Source of the DNA: a bacterium
GTDB lineage: Bacteria; UBP18; UBA7526
Direction: 5' to 3'
NCBI GenBank assembly: GCA_030615855.1
Contig: JAUWYL010000039.1
Coordinates: 1 to 5,010, forward strand
DNA length: 5,010 nucleotides
The notes under the pieces are model-generated. The model did no database searches, had not been told where the DNA came from, and worked only from the letters and a program-made list of their open reading frames with translations. Made by a program: the position numbers and the translations under genes. Below, piece after piece: positions 1 to 5,010 of this stretch; the first letter of the stretch is position 1; every line of letters starts with the position of its first letter.

Positions 1-1115
1 TAATTAAATTCCTGCGAGAAATCATCGCCATTCCCAGTCCTTCGGGGGAAGAGGAAAAGGTTGCTAAACGCATTGCCCGGGAGATGAGAAGAGTGGGATT
101 CGATGAGGTTCTCATCGATGAACTGGGAAGTGTTGTGGGAAAAATTGGTAAGGGAAGAATTAAAATCCTCTATGATGCCCACATAGATACCGTTGATATC
201 GGCAATAGAAGTAAGTGGTCCTTCGATCCCTATGAAGGAAAATATGAAAAAGGGATTATCTATGGCCGGGGAGCCTGCGATGATAAGGGCTGTGTAGCAT
301 CCATGCTCTATGGAGGGAGACTGATCAAGGAGTTGGAATTAGAAGAAGACTATACTCTATACTTTACAGCGAGCGTAAGGGAAGAGATTCACGAGGGATT
401 GGCTTTGAGCCACGTCATAGAGAAGAAAAGAATTAGGCCAGATTATGTCCTTATTGGCGAGCCTTCTGGCCTAAATATTGGTTATGGGCACAAGGGAAGA
501 ATAGAGTTAAAAATCACTGCTAGAGGTAGATCCTGCCACGCCGCTACTCCGGAAAGGGGGAAAAACGCTATCTATGAGATGGCACCCATTGTCTCCAGAA
601 TAGAAAGACTGAATAAAAGATTGAAAGCAAGAGAACCTCTGGGTAAAGGAATGATTGCGGTTACCAGGATTGAGACAGAAAATACCTCTCTAAATACTGT
701 TCCTGATGATTGCGCTATCTATCTTGATAGAAGAACAACTTTGGGAGAAACAAAGAGAAAAGTTATTCAAGAATTAAAATCCATACTGGGTGGTTCGAAG
801 GCTAAGGTAGAGGTCCTTAAGCATGAGAATGGGGATGAGAAGTACTATCCAGAGTGGATATTAGATGAAGACCATCCTCTAATTTTGGTCGGAGTTGAGA
901 CTTACAAGACTCTATTTGGTAAAAGACCTAAGATAAGGACCTGGCCCTTCTGCACTAATGGTTCCTATACCATGGGAATGAAGAGAATACCCACCATGGG
1001 CTTTGGCCCCGGTGACCCAAGATATGCTCATTCCGTAGATGAGAGAATAGAAGCAAATGATTTAGTGCCGGCTACTGCCTTTTACGCTCTATTCCCTTCT
1101 GTTCTTTCCTCTTGA
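1..1115 (+). CDS. ygeY: YgeY-like M20 family metallohydrolase (5' partial)
   Basis: Probable zinc-dependent cytosolic amidohydrolase/deacylase of the M20 family, YgeY ('selenium metabolism-linked hydrolase') branch. The frame stays open from the ATG at 84 back to the window edge, and the 27 upstream codons include the typical family N-terminus (EIIAIPSPSGEEEKVAK). The true start is therefore outside and ATG 84 is internal. About 370 residues are visible; the family is near 400. Counting from ATG 84, di-metal ligands are present: H33 and D35 (YDAHIDT), bridging D66 (GRGACDDKG), general base E100 and ligand E101 (VREEIHEG), E126 (IGEPSG) and C-terminal H316 (RYAHSVDE). The dimerisation domain has SCHAATPERGKNAIYEMAPI, with H152 at the position that reaches the partner's active site. 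WPFCTNGSYTMG also fits YgeY. The natural substrate is not settled; M20 relatives include N-carbamoyl-amide hydrolases, which suits the carbamoyltransferase/carbamate kinase neighbours. Family sure, YgeY branch likely. Confidence 0.88.
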   Translation, partial: IKFLREIIAIPSPSGEEEKVAKRIAREMRRVGFDEVLIDELGSVVGKIGKGRIKILYDAHIDTVDIGNRSKWSFDPYEGKYEKGIIYGRGACDDKGCVASMLYGGRLIKELELEEDYTLYFTASVREEIHEGLALSHVIEKKRIRPDYVLIGEPSGLNIGYGHKGRIELKITARGRSCHAATPERGKNAIYEMAPIVSRIERLNKRLKAREPLGKGMIAVTRIETENTSLNTVPDDCAIYLDRRTTLGETKRKVIQELKSILGGSKAKVEVLKHENGDEKYYPEWILDEDHPLILVGVETYKTLFGKRPKIRTWPFCTNGSYTMGMKRIPTMGFGPGDPRYAHSVDERIEANDLVPATAFYALFPSVLSS

Positions 1116-1207
1116 CCCCGCACCTTTTTAGCATTCATATTGACTTTTTAAAATAATTCTCTACGGCTTCTTGAATATATAAAAGGTGCGGGGTTGACAA
1201 AAGAGGA
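1107..1207. repeat. Nested inverted repeat, MITE-like, spanning the ygeY stop codon and the next promoter's -35
   Basis: A perfect 14-bp inverted repeat joins 1115-1128 (ACCCCGCACCTTTT) to 1181-1194 (AAAAGGTGCGGGGT), with 52 AT-rich non-coding bases between. The sequence TTGA occurs directly outside both 13-bp arms (1112-1115 and 1194-1197), like a 4-bp target duplication around a 78-bp element. Outer arms TCCTCTT (1107-1113) and AAGAGGA (1201-1207) also pair. No T-run follows the right arm, so it is not a standard intrinsic terminator, although the folded RNA could still protect or end the ygeY transcript. A miniature element, an operator or an RNA hairpin are all possible; a 4-bp duplication can occur by chance. 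Confidence 0.6.
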
Positions 1208-1222
1208 TAAATTCAATATAAT
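1194..1222 (+). promoter_or_regulatory. Consensus sigma70-type promoter upstream of ygeW
   Basis: TTGACA (1194-1199) and TATAAT (1217-1222) are exact matches to the housekeeping sigma consensus with the optimal 17-bp spacer. Transcription would start near 1228-1230, leaving a leader of about 140 nt before the ygeW start. This suggests that ygeW and the genes after it can be transcribed independently of ygeY. The first base of the -35 is the last base of the 14-bp inverted-repeat arm, so anything binding or folding that repeat could affect the promoter. Assignment rests on sequence match only. Confidence 0.75.
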
Positions 1223-1230
1223 CTTTACTG

Positions 1231-1331
1231 AGGAGGTGATGGAGACACGAATCTACACGAACTGCAAAGCAAAAGCAGGAAGTAAATTAAACGCGAATCA
1301 ACGCGGATCTGTGATCTGTGCAAATCTGTAA
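1231..1331 (+). other. Orphan Shine-Dalgarno-like site and possible 30-codon leader frame
   Basis: AGGAGG (1231-1236) lies almost at the predicted RNA 5' end and is followed by ATG at 1239, opening a 30-codon frame that ends at TAA 1329. The spacing of 2 nt is too short for efficient initiation, and the second half of the frame is just translated repeat sequence. The encoded peptide shows no attenuation-type run of regulatory codons. It might be a leader peptide or only a stabilising 5' ribosome site; more likely it is not a real gene. Confidence 0.2.
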
Positions 1332-1352
1332 TCAATCTGTGATGATCCGTGT
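1291..1352 (+). repeat. Degenerate ATC/TGTG repeat ending in a hairpin before the ygeW ribosome site
   Basis: Short related units follow one another: ACGCGAATCA, ACGCGGATC, TGTGATC, TGTGCAAATC, TGTAATCAATC, TGTGATGATC, CGTG. Repeats of this flavour occur in intergenic spaces of many environmental bacteria (from memory). The first and last units are complementary: 1301-1309 pairs with 1344-1352 in 9 bp including one G-U, ending three bases before the AAAGGAGG ribosome site (1355-1362). In RNA this could form a hairpin next to the translation start. Whether it has a function cannot be told from the sequence. Confidence 0.55.
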
Positions 1353-1367
1353 ATAAAGGAGGTAAGT

Positions 1368-2444
1368 ATGAAGACGAACAAATTCTTGGGACGTGATTGG
1401 ATCGATGCGGAGTTGGATTATTCCAGAGAAGAGTGGGAAACCATGATTGATGTAGCATTGGAGCTAAAGCGCCGCTGGGCGATGGGGGAAGACCATTCGC
1501 ATCTTCTCAAAGGTAAAACTCTTTTTACCATGTTCTTCAATCAATCCCTTCGCACCCGGAGCACTTTCGCGGCAGGGATTCAGCAATTAGGAGGATTTCT
1601 TGTTGACCTGGAACCGAGCAAAACCTACACCCCAGCCCGAAAGGGGTATGAGATTCCTTACAAGACAGAACGTATCTGTGATGTGGCTCAGATGCTGGAC
1701 CGGGTAGGGGAGGCTATGGCCATCCGTATGTATGGTGAACCTGCCCAGTGGATTTACGGCTTCGCCAATGCCACCATTAAGGAATTCGCCTATTATATGG
1801 AGAACCCGGTTATCAATATGGAATGCGATAAATATCATCCCACGCAGGCTTTGGCAGATATGCTCACCATAAAAGAGAAGTTCGGTAGATTTAAAAGACT
1901 GAAGTTCGTTATGTCCTGGGCTTACTCTGGCTCTACACATAAACCATTTGCCGTACCACAAAGTCTGGTTTTGGCGCCGACAAAGATGGGGATGAATGTG
2001 GTCTTTGCCCGGCCGAAAGGTTTGGAACTTGACCCTGAGGTCATCAAACAGTGCAAGAAATTTGCTAAACAGACTGGCGGTTCTTTTGCGGAAACAGACG
2101 ATATGGAAGCTGCGTTTGAAAACGCTGATGTGGTCTATCCCAAATGTTGGGGAGCTATGGATTATTTCGCCCAAGTCGATAAAAAAGGCAAAATCGTCAA
2201 GAAAGAAAACCTGGATGGGATGAAGAAACTCTTCGATAAGAACAAAGACTGGATCTGCGATGCCAAGAAGATGAAGCTCATCAAACCTAACGGAATCTAT
2301 ATGCACTGCCTGCCTGCGGATCGGGATATGGAAGTGACGGATGAGGTCATCGATGGTCCCCAGTCCGTGGTCTTCGATGAGGCAGAGAACAGACTCCATG
2401 CCCATAAGGCCATCATGGCACTACTTATGGGAGGAAGATTGTAA
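1368..2444 (+). CDS. ygeW: YgeW-like knotted carbamoyltransferase
   Basis: Aspartate/ornithine carbamoyltransferase superfamily enzyme, 358 residues, of the knotted branch that includes N-acetyl- and N-succinylornithine carbamoyltransferases and YgeW. Visible sites: carbamoyl-phosphate loop SLRTR (60-64, variant of STRTR), HPTQALAD (157-164), and HCLPADRD (313-320) in the second-substrate domain. The centre (WAYSGSTHKPFAVPQ, GMNVVFARPKGLELDPEV, GGSF, NADVVYPKCWG) closely recalls E. coli YgeW. The ending DEAENRLHAHKAIMAL recalls acetylornithine carbamoyltransferase. Start ATG 1368 is set by AAAGGAGG (1355-1362), 5 nt upstream. It lies between a ygeY-like hydrolase and a second carbamoyltransferase plus carbamate kinase, which argues for a catabolic role. 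There it would phosphorolyse a ureido compound to carbamoyl phosphate, rather than work in arginine synthesis. Substrate unproven. An arginine-pathway acetylornithine enzyme is the main alternative, made less likely by the neighbours. Confidence 0.87.
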   Translation: MKTNKFLGRDWIDAELDYSREEWETMIDVALELKRRWAMGEDHSHLLKGKTLFTMFFNQSLRTRSTFAAGIQQLGGFLVDLEPSKTYTPARKGYEIPYKTERICDVAQMLDRVGEAMAIRMYGEPAQWIYGFANATIKEFAYYMENPVINMECDKYHPTQALADMLTIKEKFGRFKRLKFVMSWAYSGSTHKPFAVPQSLVLAPTKMGMNVVFARPKGLELDPEVIKQCKKFAKQTGGSFAETDDMEAAFENADVVYPKCWGAMDYFAQVDKKGKIVKKENLDGMKKLFDKNKDWICDAKKMKLIKPNGIYMHCLPADRDMEVTDEVIDGPQSVVFDEAENRLHAHKAIMALLMGGRL

Positions 2445-2463
2445 TACAGAGAAGAATAAAATA

Positions 2464-2586
2464 GTTACTAACAGTTACTAAGGGTTACGAACGGTTACTA
2501 AGCAGTTACCGATGCTATAAAGCAACCGCTAGCAACCGATAGTAACAGTCCCGATTTTATCGGGACGTAGTAACCAATAGTAACCG
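2464..2586. repeat. Opposed 10-bp-phased GTTAC / GTAAC arrays around a hairpin
   Basis: GTTAC recurs at 2464, 2474, 2484, 2494 and 2505. The reverse-orientation form G(T/C)AAC recurs at 2522, 2532, 2542, 2570 and 2580. Spacing is 10 bp within arrays, close to one DNA turn. An exact inverted pair is CGGTTACTA (2492-2500) with TAGTAACCG (2578-2586). A perfect 8-bp stem with a 3-nt loop (2548-2566, GTCCCGAT...ATCGGGAC) sits inside the right array and is not followed by a T-run. This nearly fills the gap between the two carbamoyltransferase genes. It could be a cooperative protein-binding array, a large RNA fold or a decayed repetitive element. Confidence 0.7.
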
Positions 2587-2621
2587 CTGTATTCTATGCT
2601 TATGCCTGAAAGGAGAGTAGT

Positions 2622-3641
2622 ATGCCTAAGTCAGAATTGTTTGGGAAGGATTTGATCTGCACCCAGGAGTGGTCAAAGGAAGAATTGGTTAAGGTTTTAG
2701 AGTTGGCAGAAGAAATGCAGAGGGGTAGGTTTTCTCCCCAGTATACCTCTATCCTGAAGGACAAGACCTTCTTCATGTTCTTCTATAATCCCTCGGTGAG
2801 AACCAGACAGTCCTTTGAGTGTGCGGCAACAGAACTGGGAGGCCATGCCCAGTTCCTGGAGCCCAAGGCCATGCGGCTGAAGACAGCGAAGACAGCAGGG
2901 GAGACGGTAGAGGATGCCGCAAAGATTATGTCGAGATATGCCTGCGGGATCGGGATTAGGATGTTAGAAGATAAGATCACCAGATATGGAGAAGGGGATG
3001 AGCTATTGCGGGAGTATGCTAAGTGGGCCGATGTCCCCATAATCAGCATGGCTCACGATAAGTACCATCCTTGCCAGGGCCTGGCAGATATCATGGGACT
3101 GAGGAAACATTTGGGAAAGGATTTGAAGGGTAAGAAACTGCTCCTTACCTGGGCCCATGGTGCCCTGGCCCGTTCATGGTGTAGCGTTCAGGAGGCGGCA
3201 TTACTCTATTCTCGATTCGGGATGGATGTTACCATTGCCTCTCCTGAAGGATACGACCTCGATCCAGAGGTGATAGAAGAAACAAAGAAGAATTGCTCCA
3301 AAAATGATGCCAAATTTGAGATTACCCATGATGTTAAGGAAGGATATAAAGGAGCGGATGTTGTCTATTCCCGGAACTGGATGAGCCCCCAGGCTTATCG
3401 GGGTGGAGAACTTCGTAAAGAAGAAGAGATTGAGAAGGCCCTGAAGTATACTGAATGGATCTGTGATTCTGAAAAGATGAAACTGGGCAATAATCCATTA
3501 TTCATCCATCCCATGCCCGTTGATCGGGGGCATGAGGTGACGGATGAGGTGGCCAGCGGGTCCCGTTCCATCATCTACGATGTAGCAGAGAACCGGCTCC
3601 ATGTTCAGAAAGCCATTATGGCTCTGACTATGGCAAAATAG
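2622..3641 (+). CDS. Second knotted carbamoyltransferase (YgeW/AOTCase-like paralog)
   Basis: Second member of the same superfamily, 339 residues, about the usual length of acetylornithine carbamoyltransferases. Carbamoyl-phosphate loop is SVRTR (58-62) in FFYNPSVRTRQSFE. HPCQGLAD (149-156) replaces HPTQ, as in N-acetylornithine enzymes. GETVEDAAKIMS (93-104) is the regular loop-helix motif, which the upstream paralog lacks. The second-substrate motif is HPMPVDRG (296-303), not HCLP, so the Cys that helps bind ornithine in classical enzymes is missing and the amino substrate probably differs from its neighbour's. The C-terminus AENRLHVQKAIMAL is typical of the knotted branch. Start ATG 2622 is supported by AAAGGAG (2609-2615), 6 nt before. 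With the preceding gene and the carbamate kinase it probably yields carbamoyl phosphate from a ureido intermediate, perhaps the other carbamoyl group of the same molecule. Family firm, substrate unknown. Confidence 0.88.
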   Translation: MPKSELFGKDLICTQEWSKEELVKVLELAEEMQRGRFSPQYTSILKDKTFFMFFYNPSVRTRQSFECAATELGGHAQFLEPKAMRLKTAKTAGETVEDAAKIMSRYACGIGIRMLEDKITRYGEGDELLREYAKWADVPIISMAHDKYHPCQGLADIMGLRKHLGKDLKGKKLLLTWAHGALARSWCSVQEAALLYSRFGMDVTIASPEGYDLDPEVIEETKKNCSKNDAKFEITHDVKEGYKGADVVYSRNWMSPQAYRGGELRKEEEIEKALKYTEWICDSEKMKLGNNPLFIHPMPVDRGHEVTDEVASGSRSIIYDVAENRLHVQKAIMALTMAK

Positions 3642-3656
3642 AACGCACATCTGAAA

Positions 3657-3738
3657 AGTTCGGAGTTCGGAGTTCGGAGTTCGGAGAAAAAATACACCGA
3701 ACTCAAGTGACCCCACCAAAGGCGGGGGAGCGTGCTCC
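3657..3738 (+). repeat. Four AGTTCGG tandem repeats followed by hairpins
   Basis: AGTTCGG is repeated four times without error (3657-3684). The last GAGTTCGG (3677-3684) is complementary to CCGAACTC (3697-3704), giving an 8-bp stem with a 12-nt A-rich loop. Two earlier GAGTTCGG copies could pair in its place. A second stem follows, CCCCACC (3711-3717) with GGCGGGG (3721-3727), with one mismatch. It overlaps a near-palindrome GGAGCGTGCTCC (3727-3738). None ends in a U-run, so intrinsic termination is not supported. The region may modulate expression or mRNA processing between the carbamoyltransferase and kinase genes, or may be neutral repeat DNA. Confidence 0.6.
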
Positions 3739-3768
3739 AAACTAAACCGACTAGAAGGAGGTTTTGAG

Positions 3769-4878
3769 ATGGCAAGAAGAATAAGGCTTTTTGCTTTTGG
3801 AGGAAATGAGGTGGCTCCGGCAGGATTGACAGATGAGGAGGGAAAATCTATTATTCCCGACATCCCCATGCAATGGCAGAGGACGGATCAAACCTGTAAG
3901 GAAATAGCGGATGTGATTACTGCTCATCCAGAGGACGATTATATAATAAGCCATGGTAATGGCCCCCAGGTGGGAAACATCCTTTTAAGAGCAGAGTATT
4001 CTCATAAGATTCTGCATACCTTGCCTTTAGACGTCTGCGGTGCCGATACTCAAGGGTCAATGGGGTATATGATTGCCATGCTGGGGAACGAACTGAGGAA
4101 TCGGGGGATAGATAAGATTGTGGCTGAGACCGTGACCCAGGTGGTGGTTAATAAGGACGATCCTGATTTTCAGAATCCTACCAAGTTTATTGGCCCTTCC
4201 TATAGGAAAGAGGAAGCCCTGGAAAGGAAGGAGAAGTATGGTTGGGCAGTGAAATTATATTCGAAAGATGAGCAGGGGAAAGAAATCTGGAGGAGGGTGG
4301 TTCCTTCGCCGATACCTATAGATATCGTGGAGATAGACGCAGTAGAATCCGCCTTGAAAGCAGGCATCATCCCCATCAGTGTTGGTGGGGGAGGGATCCC
4401 GATAGTCCAGGTGGAGCCAGAGATCGTTGATGGAAAAGAGGTTTATAAATGCAACTACGGAATTACCTATACCAGACCCTATGTCGAGGGCCAGCCAAAG
4501 GCCAAGATCTATACCGGCGTAGAGGCGGTCATCGATAAAGATTATGCTACTTCCCTTTTAGGAAGAATGCTGATTAAGAAAGCCAAAGAAAGAGGGGAGG
4601 AGTTAGAAGTGAGTTTTACCATCTTTACTGCAGAGGATGGAGCAAAGCTGAACTATCAAAAGCCGGATCAGAAGGACCTCAGGCATCTTACCTTAAGCGA
4701 GGCAAAGGAGCTATACAATCGCAAGCCCTGCCCTTTCCCTCCGGGAAGCATGGGTCCCAAGGTAAAGTCCATTATCGACTTCTTAGAGGCTGGGGGAAAG
4801 GTAGCCTATATCTCTTTAACCAAACTCTTCGGAAAGACCTTGAAGGGTGAAGCAGGCACGACCATTGTGCCTGATTGA
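3769..4878 (+). CDS. arcC: Divergent, enlarged carbamate kinase
   Basis: Amino acid kinase-fold carbamate kinase: carbamoyl phosphate + ADP gives carbamate + ATP, the energy-yielding step of ureido and arginine catabolism. Motifs in order: FGGN (10-13), SHGNGPQVGN (61-70), LPLDVCGADTQGSMGYM (85-101), PTKFIGP (137-143, active-site Lys), GGGGIP (206-211), GVEAVIDKD (250-258, K257/D258) and GSMGPKV (326-332). At 369 residues it is about 55 longer than usual. Much of the excess is a 38-residue stretch between GGGGIP and GVEAVIDKD, where most relatives have roughly a dozen, plus extra residues near 20-34. The usual LTDVD motif is replaced by FTAED (286-290). Start ATG 3769 follows AAGGAGG (3755-3761) by 7 nt. 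Position after two carbamoyltransferases suggests it uses their carbamoyl phosphate; by context it corresponds to E. coli yqeA. The arcC symbol is family-level only. Changed phosphoryl-acceptor specificity is possible. Confidence 0.88.
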   Translation: MARRIRLFAFGGNEVAPAGLTDEEGKSIIPDIPMQWQRTDQTCKEIADVITAHPEDDYIISHGNGPQVGNILLRAEYSHKILHTLPLDVCGADTQGSMGYMIAMLGNELRNRGIDKIVAETVTQVVVNKDDPDFQNPTKFIGPSYRKEEALERKEKYGWAVKLYSKDEQGKEIWRRVVPSPIPIDIVEIDAVESALKAGIIPISVGGGGIPIVQVEPEIVDGKEVYKCNYGITYTRPYVEGQPKAKIYTGVEAVIDKDYATSLLGRMLIKKAKERGEELEVSFTIFTAEDGAKLNYQKPDQKDLRHLTLSEAKELYNRKPCPFPPGSMGPKVKSIIDFLEAGGKVAYISLTKLFGKTLKGEAGTTIVPD

Positions 4879-4887
4879 AGAAAAAAA

Positions 4888-4927
4888 GTGGGAAAGTGAG
4901 AAAGTGAGCAGGTGGGAAAGCGAGAAG
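4888..4927 (+). repeat. 8-bp purine-rich tandem repeat, five units
   Basis: GTGGGAAA, GTGAGAAA, GTGAGCAG, GTGGGAAA and GCGAGAAG follow each other in exact 8-bp register and fill nearly all of the gap between the kinase stop and the next gene. The repeat may have replaced or may act as the ribosome site of the following gene, since no clean GGAGG is present. Confidence 0.65.
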
Positions 4928-4929
4928 AA

Positions 4930-5010
4930 GTGAAAAAGATAAAGGGATTGAGGTGTCTGGGATGTGGCCGGGAGTATAGTCCGGAAGAGGTGAAGTACAA
5001 TTGCCCTTCC
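4930..5010 (+). CDS. Threonine-synthase-like PLP enzyme, N-terminal zinc-ribbon fragment (3' partial)
   Basis: Only the first 27 codons are in the window. The translation from GTG 4930 carries LRCLGCGREY and YNCPS, that is C9-x2-C12 and C25, with the fourth ligand expected just past the edge. This rubredoxin-like zinc ribbon at the very N-terminus is characteristic of many bacterial threonine synthases and related fold-type II PLP enzymes. The frame is open only from 4900, and candidate starts are GTG 4930 and GTG 4912. I prefer 4930 because the conserved part begins soon after it, but neither has a strong ribosome site (GGTGGGA at 4911-4917 is the nearest). In the E. coli cluster the corresponding PLP enzyme is YgeX, diaminopropionate ammonia-lyase, so this protein might act as a lyase on the pathway's amino acid rather than in threonine synthesis. 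Another zinc-ribbon protein cannot be excluded from so short a fragment. Confidence 0.6.
   Translation, partial: MKKIKGLRCLGCGREYSPEEVKYNCPS

Follow-up and report, generated by a model that had tools for sequence, protein, structure and literature searches.

The window, i.e. the whole 5,010-bp stretch of DNA analysed here, is an entire contig (JAUWYL010000039.1, hereafter C39) of a 94%-complete, 1.375-Mb metagenome-assembled genome (MAG) of 45 contigs. All its coding frames lie on the + strand: four long open reading frames (ORFs) are followed by the beginning of a fifth gene (Table 1). The main subject is the pair of adjacent carbamoyltransferases, designated CT1 and CT2, together with the YgeY-family hydrolase, the carbamate kinase (CK) and the pyridoxal phosphate (PLP) enzyme encoded beside them. 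These ORFs give full, significant domain matches and are not chance ORFs; the row of genes recurs with high identity in sister genomes. Shine-Dalgarno-like sequences (AAGGAGG/AAGGAG) precede CT1, CT2 and CK. An initial annotation, made from the sequence of the window, had named a YgeY-like M20 hydrolase, two carbamoyltransferases on the same strand, a carbamate kinase and a PLP-type N-terminus, and these identifications hold, the kinase being carbamate-kinase-like with a score below its model cut-off.

Table 1. Features of the window. Bit scores are followed by the cut-off of the model in brackets.
Feature	Position	Strand	Evidence
YgeY-family M20 hydrolase, N-terminus missing (start on contig C4)	3..1115	+	NF009555, 456 bits (321); TIGR03526, 448 bits (321.5)
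Imperfect inverted repeat, 23-nt arms, 83%, between ygeY and CT1	1115..1194	.	
CT1 carbamoyltransferase, 358 amino acids (aa)	1368..2444	+	PF02729/PF00185, alignment, tree, model
10-bp tandem repeats, CT1-CT2 gap	2463..2546	.	
CT2 carbamoyltransferase, 339 aa	2622..3641	+	PF02729/PF00185, alignment, tree, model
Divergent (putative) carbamate kinase, 369 aa	3769..4878	+	TIGR00746, 252 bits (358); operon slot
Threonine-synthase-like PLP enzyme, first 27 codons, GTG start, runs off the end	4930..5010	+	Sequence; sister gene complete

Purine genes around the window

Contig C4 of the same genome (reverse-complemented) ends with 141 bases that are exactly identical to bases 1-141 of the window. Such an exact end overlap is the mark of neighbours in an assembly graph, and C4 and C39 are therefore considered adjacent. 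C4 carries, in this order, genes encoding a NuoF-like protein, a NuoG/HydA-like ferredoxin protein, SsnA, PLP489 (a 489-aa PLP enzyme of the CysK fold) and the start of YgeY. The overlap thus supports the order ssnA-PLP489-ygeY-CT1-CT2-CK-thrC-like in the window's own genome. The same order is found uninterrupted on one 43.9-kb contig (L031/L111/L112) of the sister genome G002, where it is followed by a gene encoding a DgcN-like DUF1611 protein. The thrC-like gene is complete there (L031:13691-14932, 413 aa; NF006050, 310 bits, cut-off 303). Its end is overlapped by the DUF1611/DgcN-like gene (L031:14916-15992), whose product reaches 205 bits where the DgcN model requires 480. The kinase of the window occupies the slot that is held by an ArcC-type kinase in most relatives; this slot and its homology suggest that it functions as a carbamate kinase.

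The upstream part of the G002 contig encodes PreA (449 bits, cut-off 335, with the PreA model) and a PreT-like flavoprotein, an 8-oxoguanine deaminase (621 bits, cut-off 532), a ferredoxin and two proteins of the aldehyde ferredoxin oxidoreductase family. The same block is present on contig C8 of the window's own genome. 8-Oxoguanine deaminase yields urate, so its presence in this block fits a urate pathway. Genes of the aldehyde ferredoxin oxidoreductase family (tungsten-type) are found in the purine cluster of this lineage (L134:16355-18319, L111:6956-8935, L133:3-1745), accompanied by ferredoxins and NuoEF-like subunits, at the place expected for XdhD; they could possibly encode an alternative reductase to XdhD.

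SsnA, a marker of the pathway, scores 536 bits (vs 455.5) on C4 and 559 bits (cut-off 444) on the sister contig. A single HyuA was found in the window's genome (478 bits, cut-off 393); it is encoded on contig C6 inside a pyrimidine island, and being the sole copy found it would have to serve both the urate and the pyrimidine routes if the proposed urate route operates. The initial annotation had proposed a search for ssnA, hydantoinase and ygfK genes: the first two were found, and no YgfK over cut-off was detected in the window's genome (G000) or its relatives, which gave only GltD/PreT-like matches below the cut-off. No match to YgeX was found at E 1e-40 in G000, and none over cut-off in 42 sampled genomes carrying CT1/CT2; the PLP enzyme of the window is threonine-synthase-like and is not YgeX. 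PLP489 (L031:7057-8526, L132:281-1750) is conserved in about 20 purine clusters, and in L176 its gene also adjoins those of YgeW and YgeY; none of the family models describes it well.

The inverted repeat that follows ygeY could be a terminator or a processing hairpin. Other short tandem repeats are found in intergenic regions at 3657-3686 (7-bp units) and 4885-4926 (8-bp units). No Rfam match was found within the window.

Two clades of carbamoyltransferases

CT1 and CT2 each contain both carbamoyltransferase Pfam domains (113-136 bits, cut-offs of about 30). The YgeW hidden Markov model (HMM) TIGR03316 (cut-off 500) gives 170 bits for CT1 and 130 bits for CT2; the acetylornithine transcarbamylase (AOTC) model NF003384 (cut-off 288) gives 255 and 253 bits. 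Both proteins also fall under the cut-offs of ornithine transcarbamylase (OTC). YgeW identity was rejected for both in the strict sense on account of the TIGR03316 cut-off and of the tree described below. HMM searches detected no YgeW over cut-off in the window's genome.

Conservation was assessed in alignments of CT1 with its orthologs (53 sequences) and of CT2 (42 sequences). All the carbamoyl-phosphate ligands that lie within one subunit (list of PMC4581275) are invariant in both sets. SxRT, HPxQ and a conserved Arg are invariant in CT1 and CT2; HCLP is found in CT1 and a variant, HPMP, in CT2. The DxxxSMG motif of the OTC 240's loop is absent (YPKCWGA in CT1, YSRNWMSP in CT2), and the Lys302 column diagnostic of AOTC holds a Glu in both (E322 in CT1 and E305 in CT2, each invariant among orthologs).

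The substrate-side residues of CT1 and CT2 differ sharply. CT1 carries a proline-rich loop, KPFAVPQ (192-198), and K259, both invariant in the 53 sequences, as well as the YgeW loop signature WAYSxSxxKPxxVPQ. The carboxylate-side pair E144/K252 of AOTC corresponds to E152/K259 in CT1; the Lys equivalent to K259 is held to anchor a carboxylate in AOTC and YgeW. At the same positions CT2 has A144 and R251, an Arg replacing the Lys of the knotted members, and its loop is proline-free with an invariant R184. The basic residues K259 and R251 sit where OTC has its ornithine-binding Asp. From the (T/S)RWQTTG and HDLP motifs of 2,3-diaminopropionate transcarbamylase (DPTCase), CT2 has the S-R pair only, with HPMP instead of HDLP.

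The predicted structures are of high confidence, with a mean predicted local distance difference test score (pLDDT) of 94.5 (CT1) and 95.3 (CT2). AOTC is the top structural match of both models (Z of about 44, root mean square deviation 1.5-1.7 A, 320-326 residues), with OTC and YgeW ranking lower; for CT2, knotted AOTC gives Z 44 vs Z 40 for the best OTC. Both transferases had been described as knotted. The proline-rich loop makes this well supported by sequence for CT1; the CT2 loop lacks the proline, though the CT2 model fits knotted AOTC best.

In a tree of 89 proteins, CT1 and CT2 are each monophyletic (100/100). CT1 is sister to YgeW plus CT3 (94/85, just below the starred threshold), CT3 being a group of short relatives, carbamoyltransferases of about 330 aa that branch with YgeW. 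CT2 forms a separate, deeper clade. CT3 always adjoins ygeY (for example L039:8714-9697, L013-L020, L184:5253-6239) and is probably the widespread short version of YgeW, which TIGR03316 fails to detect.

Co-occurrence of CT1, CT2 and YgeY

When CT1 was used to scan the species contigs of GTDB, 80 loci were retrieved, with records from Cloacimonadota, Elusimicrobiota, Neomarinimicrobiota, Chloroflexota, Zixibacteria, Verrucomicrobia, Eremiobacterota, Caldisericota, Deltaproteobacteria/Myxococcales, Eisenbacteria, Armatimonadota and one Thorarchaeota chromosome. The pair is conserved in about ten other phyla. CT2 lies at most 4.3 kb from CT1 in 55 of the 80 loci, mostly at less than 200 bp. A less biased figure is provided by the loci having at least 4.3 kb of flank on each side, 30 of 35 of which have CT2 near CT1; a survey of this co-occurrence had been proposed by the initial annotation. 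The reverse direction, also less biased, shows CT2 in 7 of 98 spread genomes, 6 of which carry CT1. In the seventh (G077), a diverged near-OTC transferase (L118:13428-14444) fills the CT1 slot beside CT2 and CK; a near-syntenic relative, L034, keeps a normal CT1. The Deltaproteobacteria MAG CSMAG_2928 has two CT1 copies on separate contigs (L087, L088), with no CT2 in view. In several lineages the pair is separated by 1-4 kb or by an intervening gene.

The neighbours of the pair include SsnA, xanthine dehydrogenase (XDH) subunits, YgfK-like proteins or PreT/PreA, ThrC-like, PLP489 or CysK-like enzymes, nucleoside ABC transporters and adenine deaminase. The order is XDH-SsnA-YgfK-like-CT2-CK-CT1-ThrC-like in Neomarinimicrobiota, HyuA-XdhA-PreT-PreA-SsnA-CysK-CT1-CT2 in Zixibacteria and SsnA-XDH-YgfK-like-CT1-CT2-CK-PLP489 in one Cloacimonadota genome. 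Among the 42 sampled CT1/CT2 genomes, SsnA-like proteins were found in 39 (24 over cut-off), HyuA in 35 and YgeW in 6.

In the 98-genome set, ygeY is adjacent in all 8 CT3 loci (with a single carbamoyltransferase), as it is in all 6 YgeW loci. No YgeY was found at E 1e-50 in 17 of the 42 CT1/CT2 genomes, a call that covers YgeY only among carbamoyl hydrolases. These 17 include the Thorarchaeota chromosome and the Neomarinimicrobiota, Zixibacteria and Cloacimonadota MAGs, whose purine operons are otherwise intact. SsnA is present in the genomes without YgeY, except G109, in which none was found. The 100%-complete genome G074 encodes SsnA, CT1, CT2 and CK and lacks YgeY. These absences suggest that CT1 and CT2 together can replace the set of one transferase plus hydrolase. 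A Fisher test comparing YgeY in genomes with one and with two transferases gave p of about 0.01; it is exploratory and only indicative, as frame length was the sole basis for classing three of the single-transferase genomes and completeness was uneven.

Proposed pathway, alternatives and known systems

The purine interpretation of the operon, which the initial annotation had advanced, is supported by SsnA, PreA/PreT, 8-oxoguanine deaminase and HyuA in the genome, and by XDH or YgfK-like proteins beside the pair in other phyla. The catabolic pairing of the transferases with a carbamate kinase is likewise supported. On balance, and with slightly better than even confidence, the window is considered as the downstream half of an operon for reductive breakdown of purine (urate), in which CT1 and CT2 would each act by phosphorolysis on one of the two ureido groups of 2,3-diureidopropionate. 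From gene content and homology, the substrates, the order and direction of the reactions, the ATP yield and the lyase are proposed as follows. Urate or another 8-oxopurine would be reduced and opened to 2,3-diureidopropionate by PreA/PreT (as a substitute for UacX/YgfK), SsnA and HyuA. CT1 would convert diureidopropionate and phosphate to carbamoyl phosphate and a mono-ureido product, which CT2 would convert with phosphate to carbamoyl phosphate and 2,3-diaminopropionate. CK would make two ATP from the two carbamoyl phosphates, instead of one per purine. As YgeX is absent, the role of lyase is given to a fold-II PLP enzyme (ThrC-like or PLP489), which would deaminate diaminopropionate to pyruvate and so pull the unfavourable phosphorolyses. 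CT2 would thus do by phosphorolysis what YgeY does by hydrolysis in E. coli, and YgeY would perhaps be an irreversible bypass in the lineage of the window. The AOTC-like carboxylate site of CT1 would fit an enzyme that takes the 3-carbamoyl group off an N-acylated amino acid; the Ser-Arg pair of CT2 recalls DPTCase, a weak hint given by two residues.

Several observations weigh against this assignment. The ygeY gene sits in the operon of the window itself; hydrolysis could therefore take care of one ureido group, and one transferase is possibly redundant. The two phosphorolyses and two ATP of the initial annotation gain support from the CT1/CT2 genomes devoid of YgeY but are not required here. 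Some Cloacimonadota (L039, L044) hold CT3, YgeY, CT1 and CT2 together, which exceeds the needs of two ureido groups. The retention of YgeY in the window and its presence with three transferases in these Cloacimonadota are the main point left unexplained, and some absences of YgeY could be explained by MAG incompleteness. CT2 is missing nearby in 5 of the 35 well-flanked CT1 loci; its presence in 42 of 42 sampled genomes is biased by the choice of loci (picked almost wholly among those with CT2 in view) and is not a co-occurrence rate. The evidence for XDH comes from other phyla, where its subunits adjoin the pair.

The YgeY gene of the window also bears on an unlikely, though serious, explanation, in which only CT1 would belong to urate breakdown, with the role of a short YgeW; YgeY would take the second ureido group as in E. 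coli, and CT2 would act on another ureido substrate while sharing operon and kinase. The sister position of CT1 to the YgeW clade, its loop and lysine and the CT1 loci without CT2 nearby agree with this division of labour, whereas the YgeY-less genomes that have SsnA, G074 included, and the occurrence of CT2 inside this short operon in about ten phyla argue against it. The tight pairing could instead reflect two subunits of one hetero-oligomeric transferase, active sites of this family lying between subunits. This is improbable: each protein has the complete ligand set for carbamoyl phosphate, their substrate sides diverge and the pair is split in several lineages.

Two further roles would place the pair outside purine breakdown. 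One of the two enzymes could be a catabolic beta-alanine transcarbamylase, whose existence has been suggested (PMC4581275), acting on carbamoyl-beta-alanine from pyrimidine breakdown. A reductive pyrimidine island is indeed present in the genome, on C6; it encodes a purine-nucleoside phosphorylase, an adenosine deaminase, a phosphopentomutase, a PreT-PreA fusion, a class III aminotransferase, HyuA and a CN-hydrolase-type carbamoyl hydrolase (AguB-like, 235 bits, below cut-off). It looks like nucleoside salvage plus a reductive pyrimidine route with its own carbamoyl-cleaving enzyme, on another contig, whereas CT1 and CT2 cluster with SsnA, and this role is judged marginally less probable still than shared subunits. 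Synthesis of citrulline-type compounds for arginine, by carbamoylation of acetyl- or succinylornithine, would agree with AOTC and OTC being the nearest solved structures and HMMs. It was rejected, and is very improbable, in view of the HMM cut-offs, the diagnostic residues (Glu for AOTC Lys302) and a separate operon on contig C45, where an ArgF carrying the ornithine motif DVWASMG is encoded with argJ-, argB-, argD-, argG- and argH-like genes (names other than ArgF read from the sequences). Flanking arginine genes without purine genes, named by the initial annotation as the contrary outcome, were not found: ArgF is on C45 and SsnA adjoins.

Beyond the operon assignment, it is tentatively proposed, at somewhat less than an even chance, that CT2 has a new transcarbamylase activity, the phosphorolysis of mono-ureido-diaminopropionate, and that with CT1 it gives a two-ATP urate fermentation replacing YgeY hydrolysis in about ten phyla, most of them uncultured, and perhaps in an Asgard archaeon. 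If this is true, the substrate-level ATP yield would be doubled by having two dedicated transferases, and the pathway would reach beyond gut bacteria into many phyla of sediment and groundwater. CT1 and CT2, probably each specific for one ureido group, offer a means to test the order of cleavage. Automatic names such as 'ornithine carbamoyltransferase' conceal distinct functions.

Among known enzymes, AOTC (PDB 3kzk) is the best structural match of both models, and CT1 keeps E152 and K259; CT1 and CT2 differ from it by 36-37% identity, Lys302 replaced by Glu, scores below the HMM cut-off and no arginine context. CT1 shares with YgeW (YTCase, PDB 3q98, 2yfk) the WAYSxSxxKPxxVPQ loop, the Lys of the 240's loop and the sister clade, but has 358 aa vs 396, no extra helices in the 240's loop, 33% identity and a score far under the model cut-off. 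DPTCases exist in the zwittermicin and viomycin clusters (PMC4581275) and offer a precedent for the present scheme. They catalyse the expected reverse of the step proposed for CT2, which shares the Ser/Thr-Arg pair starting the 240's loop; they belong to the unknotted OTC branch, have HDLP and are biosynthetic, whereas CT2 has HPMP and a different loop. Another precedent comes from Rubrobacter, in which a transcarbamylase beside a carbamate kinase replaces allantoate amidohydrolase (PMC4016543). This ureidoglycine transcarbamylase system resembles the present one in that transcarbamylase and kinase replace a hydrolase in purine breakdown with a gain of ATP; it differs by its aspartate transcarbamylase branch, oxidative pathway and single transferase.

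The closest system is the reductive uric acid cluster of E. coli, xdhD-ygfK-ssnA-hyuA-ygeW-ygeY-ygeX-yqeA (Li et al. 2025, PMC12507026). There the two ureido groups fall to different enzymes, YgeW using phosphate to remove one and YgeY using water to remove the other (PMC12507026, PMC12990295). The order and chemistry of the two cleavages are a stated open question (PMC12990295): YgeW is proposed to remove the 3-carbamoyl by Liu et al. (as cited in PMC12990295) and to act at the 2-position by Li et al. (PMC12507026). The latter scored neighbourhoods by Pfam family and did not separate one from two transferases. No description of a second transferase in this pathway was found in the open-access full-text literature, pathway papers included. 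Both systems share SsnA, HyuA, YgeY, a carbamoyltransferase and a carbamate kinase, and are thought to lead to diaminopropionate, then pyruvate. The present one has two short transferases of two clades rather than one YgeW (the second transferase being a departure suggested by the initial annotation), PreA/PreT rather than YgfK, and other fold-II PLP enzymes in place of YgeX; YgeY is missing in many relatives. It is a new variant of the pathway published in 2025, with a plausible new enzyme activity.

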